Shown here: positions 38,107 to 40,727 of the stretch, piece after piece | Layout of the letters: each line of letters starts with the position of its first letter | How positions within the stretch are numbered: the stretch's first letter is position 1 | Source of the DNA: Verrucomicrobia bacterium IMCC26134 | GTDB lineage: Bacteria > Verrucomicrobiota > Verrucomicrobiia > Opitutales > Opitutaceae | Direction: 5' to 3' | DNA length: 64,000 nucleotides | NCBI GenBank assembly: GCA_000972765.1 | Contig: CP011265.1 | Coordinates: 434,001 to 498,000, forward strand | Notes under the pieces: model-generated | Seen by the model: only the letters and a program-made list of their open reading frames with translations | What the model was told of the DNA's origin: nothing | The model's database searches: none | Position numbers and translations under genes: made by a program

Positions 38107-38302
38107 GGCGTTGGTTGAACTATCGCAGAAAGACGGGTCACGGACTCGGCGCGGCTTGGTGGAGAGTGCGCGGAAATTGGTGTGGTTGCAGACTCGTTTA
38201 AAACCGGCGTGCCGGATAATCGCCGGTCGAAAGCGGTGAAAAGGTGAGTAAGGCGGGTGCGTATTTTATTGCATCAAGCACATGGTTTGGAAGCGTTTGA
38301 GT

Positions 38303-40582
38303 ATGAAACCGAAGAACCGTTTAAGGACGTTTTTGGCGGCGATAACATGGGCGGGCGTTTTAGCTGGAGTGACCCCGCTTGCCGGCGAGACACCGCGGGC
38401 AAAGGGTGCGCGACCGAAGGAAGGGGCGGTCGCAGCCGATGCGACCCCAGTGAGCGTGCGAGTGGCTGCGATGGAGGACGCGCAGGCGCTGGCGAGGTTG
38501 AAGGAACTCCGGCGCGAGATCGCACGGCATGACGAGTTGTATTTCCGCAAGGCGGCGCCGGTGATCAGCGATTACGAATACGATCAGTTGAAGGCGGAGC
38601 TGCGGGCGCTGGAGGCGCGGGCGTCGGATGGGCAGACCTTGGCTGGCGAAACACTGGGTGATGATCGCTCGGCGGGTTTTACCAGCCACCGGCATCTCGA
38701 ACCGATGCTGAGCTTAACCAAGGCTTATTCGGACGAGGAAGTGGCGGCCTTCGTGGCGCGGGTGGAGGCGAAGCTCGGGCGTGGAGCGGTGGCGTTTCGC
38801 GTGGAGCCGAAGTATGACGGTCTGGCGGTGAGCCTCACTTACGAGCAGGGCCGTCTGGTGCGGGCCGTGACGCGCGGCAACGGCATGGAAGGCGACGACA
38901 TCACGGCGAATGCGAGGTTGCTGGTGCGCGGCTTGGCGGAGCGACTGGGTGAGGGAGGCAGCGACGGCGGCGCAGGCGGTGAAGCTGCGTCGTGGAGCGG
39001 GCCGGAGCGGGTGGAGTTGCGCGGCGAGATTTATATGGGAACGGCGGAGTTTAAGCGGATCAACGCGGAGCGGGAGGCGGCGGGGGAGGATTTGTTCGCG
39101 CATCCGCGCACTGTGGCGGTTGGCACGATCCGGGCGCTGGAGGCAGGCGAGGTGGCGGACCGGAAGCTCGAGCTGGTTTGCTATGGCTGGGGCGCGTGGA
39201 CTCCGGCGGTGGACCGTCCGGCGACCCTCGCTGAGTTTCGCGCCAAGCTGGCGGCGTGGGGCCTGCCGGTAGTGGGTATTGAGAAAGTGGTGACGGACGC
39301 GGCCGGGTTGAGCACGGCGGTGGCGGAAGTGCGGGCGGCCGCGCCCGGGCTGGGCCTGCCGGTGGACGGGGTGGTGTTGAAGGTTGAGCGCGTCTCGCAG
39401 CAGGAGGAACTCGGGCTGGCGCCGGGCGCCCCGCGTTGGGCGCTGGCGAGGAAGTTCGAACCGGAGCGGGCGGTGACGCGATTGCAGGGCATCACGCTGC
39501 AAGTCGGACGCACCGGGGTGGTGACGCCGGTCGCGGAGCTGGCCCCGGTGGAGCTGGCGGGTTCGACCATCGCGCGGGCGACCTTGCACAACGCCGGCGA
39601 GATCGCGCGGCGCGACCTGCGGGTGGGGGATTGGGTGCTGGTGGAGAAGGCGGGGGAGATCATCCCGGCCATCGTGGGCGTCGAGATGGCGCGCCGCACC
39701 GGCGCGGAGACGCCGTATGTGTTTCCGGAGAGTTGTCCGAGTTGTGCGGAGAAGCTCACTCAGGCAGCGGGCGAGGTGGGCTATCGGTGCGCGAACCGGG
39801 CCTGCCCGGCGCAGGTGGCGCGGCGGATCGGTCATTTTGCGACGCCGGCCGCGCTCGATATCGCGGGGCTTGGCCCGGGGGTGATCGACGCCCTGGTGGC
39901 GCGCGGCCTGGCGAGGAGTCCGGCCGACCTTTATCGATTGAGGGCAGGGGAATGGGCGGCGTTACCGGGACTCGGAGCGCGCTCGGCGGCGAAGCTCATG
40001 GCGGGGCTCGCGGCGAGCCGCGAAACGGCGCAGGCGAACGGGGCTCGTTTGATCTACGCGCTGGGTTTGCCCGGGGTGGGTGAGGGGGCGGCGCGGCGGT
40101 TGACCGAGGTGGTGACGGGCCTGGGCGCGCTGGCTGCCTTGGAAGCTGAGGCCCTGCGCCGGCCGGAGAGCGAGGGTGGTGCGGGCTTGGGCGAGGCGGT
40201 GGCCCGGGAGCTGGTTGAGTATTTGCAAAGGCCGGACGTGCGTGCCGAGTTGGCGGCGCTGCGAGCGGCGGACATCGGGGGTTCTTGGACGAAAAAGCCC
40301 TCTCCCATACCTTCCGACACGGGATCGGACGTGTTGCGTGGCCATGTGGTGGTGGTGACGGGGACGTTCACGCACTGGACCCGTGCGGAGGCGACTAGAC
40401 GCCTGACCGCTGCCGGTGCCACGGTTGGGGCGGACGTGACGCGCCAAACCACTCTATTGATCGTCGGTGCCGAGCCGGGCTCTAAGCTGGTCAAGGCCCG
40501 TGAACGAGGCATTGAGGTGATCGACGAAGCCGAGTTGATCAGGCGCTTAGGAACCGGAATGAAAAGCGAAGCGACTCATTGA
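38303..40582 (+). CDS. ligA: NAD-dependent DNA ligase with signal-peptide-like leader
   Basis: A 759-residue LigA with all domains. Domain Ia shows YFRKAAPVISDYEYDQL. The adenylation site is EPKYDGLA with Lys170. The OB-fold, a four-Cys zinc finger (CPSCAEKL...CANRACPAQ), HhH repeats (ALPGLGARSAAKL) and a BRCT domain (LRGHVVVVTGTFTHWTRAEA) follow. Before domain Ia there are about 55 extra residues starting MKPKNRLRTFLAAITWAGVL, a basic n-region plus hydrophobic stretch that looks like a Sec signal peptide. An internal ATG at 38471 (Met57) would give an ordinary cytoplasmic LigA; an ATG at 38282 adds seven residues. Which start is used decides the protein's location. Confidence 0.93.
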   Translation: MKPKNRLRTFLAAITWAGVLAGVTPLAGETPRAKGARPKEGAVAADATPVSVRVAAMEDAQALARLKELRREIARHDELYFRKAAPVISDYEYDQLKAELRALEARASDGQTLAGETLGDDRSAGFTSHRHLEPMLSLTKAYSDEEVAAFVARVEAKLGRGAVAFRVEPKYDGLAVSLTYEQGRLVRAVTRGNGMEGDDITANARLLVRGLAERLGEGGSDGGAGGEAASWSGPERVELRGEIYMGTAEFKRINAEREAAGEDLFAHPRTVAVGTIRALEAGEVADRKLELVCYGWGAWTPAVDRPATLAEFRAKLAAWGLPVVGIEKVVTDAAGLSTAVAEVRAAAPGLGLPVDGVVLKVERVSQQEELGLAPGAPRWALARKFEPERAVTRLQGITLQVGRTGVVTPVAELAPVELAGSTIARATLHNAGEIARRDLRVGDWVLVEKAGEIIPAIVGVEMARRTGAETPYVFPESCPSCAEKLTQAAGEVGYRCANRACPAQVARRIGHFATPAALDIAGLGPGVIDALVARGLARSPADLYRLRAGEWAALPGLGARSAAKLMAGLAASRETAQANGARLIYALGLPGVGEGAARRLTEVVTGLGALAALEAEALRRPESEGGAGLGEAVARELVEYLQRPDVRAELAALRAADIGGSWTKKPSPIPSDTGSDVLRGHVVVVTGTFTHWTRAEATRRLTAAGATVGADVTRQTTLLIVGAEPGSKLVKARERGIEVIDEAELIRRLGTGMKSEATH

Positions 40583-40637: not shown

Positions 40638-40727
<90 letters not shown>

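Follow-up and report, generated by a model that had tools for sequence, protein, structure and literature searches.

At positions 38282..40582 on the forward strand of the 64,000 nucleotides analysed here (the window) lies an open frame of 766 amino acids, counted from its most upstream ATG, that reads as an NAD+-dependent DNA ligase (NCBIfam LigA equivalog, E 4.9e-185). LigA is the textbook NAD+-using replication enzyme of the cytoplasm, and NAD+ is a cytoplasmic cofactor. The question is raised by the start of the frame, where a stretch resembling a secretion signal stands ahead of the ligase body. Is this leader translated, does it take the enzyme out of the cytoplasm, and what would a ligase do there? 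Judging from sequence comparisons, we give a probability of about three in four to the reading that the gene encodes an extra, NAD+-dependent LigA paralogue that is exported through Sec and probably seals nicks in DNA outside the cytoplasm.

From 38282 the frame reads MVWKRLSMKPKNRLRTFLAAITWAGVLAGVTPLAGETPRAKG... up to a methionine at 38471. The ATG at 38282 is a further in-frame start, seven codons 5' of the one at 38303, from which we number the leader. This leader (38303..38470, 56 residues, MKPKNRLRTFLAAITWAGVLAGVTPLAGETPRAKG...) is in frame with the ligase and consists of a basic n-region, the hydrophobic core FLAAITWAGVL (38330..38362) and a linker; candidate signal peptidase sites, assigned by eye and by rule, follow the core within a few residues (after VLA or LAG). 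Next comes Met57 (38471..38473), an alternative start from which a cytoplasmic LigA would result. Inspection by eye shows no Shine-Dalgarno sequence before any of the three ATGs. The preliminary description had reported a complete ligase with an in-frame basic n-region and a Sec-like hydrophobic segment, and this is confirmed by the translation and by the frame and shuffle controls across the clade that are described below.

Behind the leader the protein has the same domains and the same fold as LigA. Domain searches find an adenylation domain with the catalytic lysine (EPKYDG, 38672..39466), an OB fold (39476..39706), a four-cysteine zinc finger (39734..39811), a helix-hairpin-helix domain (40046..40246) and a BRCT domain (40325..40540); the adenylation domain, zinc finger and BRCT domain are also seen in the alignment. 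The NAD+-binding Ia domain (Nlig-Ia, 38495..38620) scores 22.6 bits, below the Pfam cut-off of 27, and its Tyr and Asp residues are conserved. The KxDG lysine, OB fold, Ia residues, zinc finger and helix-hairpin-helix thus place the protein among the NAD+-dependent DNA ligases of LigA fold. It scores above the cut-offs of two LigA equivalog models from NCBI, and LigA equivalog models are passed by all four members of its group that were tested (the window protein, L209, L185 and L290). An AlphaFold model (mean pLDDT 84.9, pTM 0.67) shows the LigA fold after the leader, and residues 1-49 form its sole long low-confidence stretch. This low pLDDT says little by itself, because the other alignment rows were trimmed to the body. 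The best PDB matches by sequence and by fold are LigA structures, with TM-scores by query length of 0.36 to 0.45 against full-length LigA entries, whose domains are flexible.

Whether the genome has another ligase for replication bears directly on the question, and the preliminary description had named a second ligA as informative. One is present, leaderless and intact. The genome (one contig) yields two ligase matches, the window gene at 0.47 Mb and a leaderless ligase at 3.00 Mb (G000:C1:2996189), which are 45% identical; the latter has a normal LigA start within a slightly longer frame and could perform replication.

To place the two genes, 228 distinct ligase ORFs were extracted from the fetched loci (150 genomes of the family, its own included, and 80 named loci). 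Removal of 60 ORFs (58 enterobacterial LigA and two from Firmicutes) left 168 for alignment. A FastTree phylogeny of these 168 bodies without leaders separates a clade of 55 that includes the window gene from 113 others (support 1.0), and the genome's own second ligase (L002) falls among the 113. In a free IQ-TREE search on 62 chosen rows, 28 of the 30 clade rows grouped at 100 and L213 and L222 were placed elsewhere; with all 30 held together the log-likelihood was 16.88 higher (p-AU 0.74). A 35-row tree put 15 of 15 clade rows in one group at 95. The window gene groups with this leader-bearing clade and has a signal-like leader itself, and by this leader and by a clade separate from L002 it is not an orthologue of the housekeeping LigA. 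The differences from LigA are thus a signal leader, a separate clade, the frequent lack of BRCT and the presence of a leaderless LigA in the same genome. A phage source was dropped, the closest of the best 80 viral loci listed being only 39% identical.

Some arrangements seen along the way concern both types of ligase. In one genome (G135) a leaderless gene (L190, on G135:C52) and an exported one (L004) are separated by about 2 kb on the same contig and strand, and the end of a leaderless-type ligase is found at most 4 kb upstream of L003. Two groups of leaderless LigA (L212, L214, L216, L221, L223 and L225; L193, L219, L224 and L226-L230) are longer in the body, at about 734 to 762 residues against the usual 665 to 700.

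Ligase matches were obtained in 146 of the 150 family genomes searched, 55 of them with a single match. The clade gene occurs in at least 52 genomes of this sample of 150, and among the rows examined a leaderless ligase stands in the tree for 34 of these 52. At class level 236 genomes were searched, 212 of them outside the family. For 13 of these 212 the best matches were added to a tree, in which one (L290, from the same order but outside the family) falls within the clade; its leader is clear. Taken with the leader and active-site comparisons below, this makes it reasonably likely that the clade represents an old NAD+ ligase family, widespread in one family of Verrucomicrobiota, that is exported and joins DNA outside the cytoplasm using NAD+ found there.

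The leaders were scored with a home-made signal rule, which requires a start codon in frame, an n-region of net positive charge and a core of 11 residues without D, E, K or R and with a mean hydropathy above 1.6. It is passed by 50 of the 55 clade members against 1 of the 113 other ligases; for genes with sufficient upstream DNA the in-frame numbers are 49 of 54 against 1 of 110 (Fisher p about 8e-35). Read in the two other frames, clade DNA passes in 1 and 1 of 54 cases and the other DNA in 5 and 1 of 110, while codon-shuffled DNA passes in 14% (clade) and 1.5% (others). Hydropathy thresholds of 1.2, 1.6, 2.0 and 2.4 retain 49, 49, 43 and 28 of the 54 clade genes and 3, 1, 0 and 0 of the 110 others. 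Five clade members fail the rule: by eye the core is broken by an arginine in L003 and L005 and the n-region is without charge in L218, whereas L118 has no usual start codon within 30 residues ahead of the core and in L220 the ligase body lacks its first conserved residues. The preliminary description had asked whether relatives conserve the leader, and they do so as a property: a charged n-region, a hydrophobic core and often an AxA-like end. The letters themselves are not conserved across the clade. Signal peptides usually conserve properties rather than letters.

These numbers also bear on the simplest competing explanation, in which the leader of the window gene is not translated and a start at Met57 yields a second cytoplasmic LigA. 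Met57 is at the usual LigA start position, and the window gene has several in-frame starts after the core; it is among the 10 of 54 clade genes that have an ATG in the spacer before the body. Long open frames also arise by chance in DNA of high GC content. Across the clade, however, the spacer between core and body (L220 left out) holds no ATG, GTG or TTG in 26 of 54 genes, the window gene not being one of the 26, and no ATG in 44 of 54. If usual starts are used, the leader must therefore be translated in those 26 genes. The nearest relatives, L003 and L004, are also without that ATG, though GTG or TTG is present there. Given, in addition, that a hydrophobic leader stands in frame across the clade and is rare in other ligases and in other frames, we consider a start at Met57 quite unlikely. 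For the window gene taken alone, which has an ATG at Met57 too, the clade comparison suggests that the leader is translated, and export as such appears well supported by the comparison.

Export need not mean release, and the preliminary description had proposed an exported or a membrane-tethered ligase. The first half of this proposal agrees with the comparison. Under the second, the leader would be an uncleaved signal anchor holding the ligase at the inner membrane, facing the periplasm, which fits the hydrophobic cores, the 15 of 56 leaders (clade plus L290) in which the stretch searched holds no [AV]xA motif, and a site in the window protein that by eye is only fair. In the other 41 of the 56, [AV]xA stands just behind the core; we therefore prefer cleaved export, and tethering seems unlikely. 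Two further routes, Tat export and a lipoprotein, were dropped: of the 56 leaders, 11 show the RRx-hydrophobic motif of the former and 4 a lipobox-like motif.

The residues of the active site were compared across the clade and are given here in E. coli numbering. Identical in all 55 clade members are E113, K115, D117, G118, R136, E173, R200, D285, K290 and K314, as are the Ia residues D32, Y35 and D36; Y22 is identical in 54. R218 is retained in 53 of 55, the zinc cysteines in 54 or 55, and R277 in 47, with Ala in the window protein. Seven clade pairs show purifying selection (dN/dS about 0.15 to 0.3). These observations weigh against the idea that the exported protein is no active ligase and persists as a DNA-binding relic or a structural envelope protein. 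That idea would agree with the longer end branches of the clade (median 0.42 against 0.17 in the others) and with the dropping of BRCT, but the conservation of catalytic and NAD+-site residues across the clade and the low dN/dS make it very improbable.

The BRCT domain, retained in the window gene, is absent from 30 of the 55 clade frames. Two of these frames run into a contig end and one (L170) is frameshifted, so that 27 of 53, or about half of the clade, have lost it; it is present in all 113 other ligases. This loss is compatible with a release from replication work. In L170 a BRCT match lies in another frame just after the stop, a frameshift that may be natural or an assembly or sequencing error. 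A depletion of free cysteines was considered as a sign of export and dropped as not convincing (2.1 non-zinc cysteines per 600 residues in the clade against 2.5 in the others).

The exported, active enzyme that we favour would work as follows. It would be translated with a Sec signal peptide and exported across the inner membrane, where signal peptidase I would most likely cleave the leader. Sec carries unfolded chains, and adenylation before export is unlikely for this reason; the ligase would rather fold with its zinc in the periplasm or outside, and adenylate itself there with NAD+ that may have leaked from cells or been released by lysis. It could then seal nicks in matrix DNA or in DNA on its way to uptake. 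We infer the last steps, self-adenylation and sealing outside, from the intact active site and from the analogy with Lig E discussed below; cleavage, location, activity, NAD+ source and DNA substrate are all proposed in the same conditional sense.

Can the surroundings of the gene reveal its task? Flanks of 1.5 to 4 kb were inspected, some of them cut by contig ends, so the counts given here are lower bounds; neighbouring ORFs came from a simple ORF caller, with antisense ORFs set aside by eye. The exported ligase gene sits in varied genomic places, and its neighbours point to no single process. Its neighbours in the window are a hemN-like gene on one side and, directly behind the ligase, a tRNA-Ser gene (gga, 40640-40727, minus strand), with nuo genes beyond. 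Among the 55 clade loci groEL lies upstream on the same strand in at least 13, an MBL-fold gene nearby in at least 14 and an Rrf2 gene in at least 12, with all three in at least 10 (families confirmed on examples). Ten such loci (L084, L088, L128, L133, L137, L140, L170, L194, L195 and L200) have groEL leading to the exported ligase, together with an MBL-fold hydrolase and an Rrf2 regulator, and in six of the groEL/MBL-fold/Rrf2 loci groES is seen by eye beside groEL. GroEL and the MBL-fold neighbour were dropped as functional partners, as they occur at 13 and 14 of 55 loci and the window gene is not among these. At three loci (L202, L203 and L207) an IS200-like (Y1) transposase gene ends 18 to 41 bases 5' of the exported ligase frame on the same strand.

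A narrower form of our reading would have the exported ligase serve natural transformation by repairing nicked periplasmic DNA before import through ComEC. At four loci the ligase has an NAD(P)H-hydrate repair gene on one side and dprA on the other, but all four belong to one genus (g42), and in the window's own genome dprA is far from the exported ligase (3.40 against 0.47 Mb). ComEC matches are missing in 2 of 52 clade-positive against 10 of 55 single-ligase genomes; this comparison (Fisher p 0.03, uncorrected for kinship) receives little weight from us. Moreover, ComEC is near universal (131 of 150 family genomes), five of the ten single-ligase genomes without it are one genus, and two (G028 and G088) have only a weak ligase match. 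ComEA (TIGR00426) was above cut-off in none of four genomes, with sub-threshold matches in three. The link to competence was set aside as weak, and a dedicated role in transformation strikes us as conceivable but doubtful.

A known ligase to compare with is Lig E. Three papers describe this ATP-dependent enzyme of Neisseria and other Proteobacteria as periplasmic or extracellular, with DNA outside the cell or on its way in as the proposed substrate (PMC10799422, PMC12221376, PMC4220977). Its loss in the gonococcus is reported there to reduce biofilm (PMC10799422, PMC12221376), and its gene has no consistent neighbours either (PMC12221376). Lig E and the window-type ligase thus have in common that they are accessory DNA ligases with an N-terminal signal, scattered over genomic places. 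They differ in that Lig E is a minimal ATP-dependent enzyme, whereas the window-type protein is NAD+-dependent and full-sized, comprising Ia, OB, zinc finger and helix-hairpin-helix domains. With these NAD+ ligase domains, and with the ATP-dependent ligase domain (PF01068) not found in its genome, the window protein does not belong to the Lig E family; we read it, by analogy, as an exported LigA paralogue that may work like Lig E.

E. coli LigB (YicF) is a second NAD+-dependent ligase whose annotated N-terminus, like that of the window-type proteins, looks by eye like a signal peptide. This protein of 562 residues matches the LigA model up to position 572 of 664, before the BRCT region, and in the alignment one of the four zinc cysteines remains, position 113 is Gln and position 290 is Arg. 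The window protein, in contrast, keeps its zinc cysteines and reaches 164.5 bits on the LigB model, whose cut-off is 498; it is accordingly not an E. coli-type LigB. In the trees LigB has an end branch of 7.95 and falls inside the clade in one and beside an outgroup in another. Because most of its zinc finger is lost and its placement is unstable, we do not claim a shared ancestry of export. The E. coli entry (L375:421-2106; L233), which starts with the signal-peptide-like stretch, is annotated simply as NAD-dependent DNA ligase; of 5426 E. coli genomes, 5371 contain a match to ligB DNA. Table 7 of PMC2731931 gives a 3.6-fold rise of ligB and a 2.4-fold rise of endA upon deletion of the envelope regulator cpxR in E. 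coli, which hints that LigB has to do with the envelope. The product of endA is the DNA-specific endonuclease I; a ligase and a nuclease may there be under common envelope control.

A job outside the cytoplasm has so far been described for an unrelated, ATP-using enzyme, Lig E; we found no description of an NAD+ version. Our literature searches, which left most subscription journals uncovered, returned no title on an exported NAD+ ligase or on a LigB signal peptide. The automatic models tried file these probably exported ligases as plain LigA. If our reading holds, extracytoplasmic ligation would have arisen once more in this clade, in addition to Lig E and possibly LigB, and the sealing of DNA outside the cell would be a common bacterial need. 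A stable exported paralogue under purifying selection would also imply that NAD+ can be used beyond the cytoplasm and that bacteria carry out DNA repair there. As the accessory gene is accompanied by a separate LigA for replication, these organisms would allow a clean genetic test of what extracytoplasmic ligation is for.
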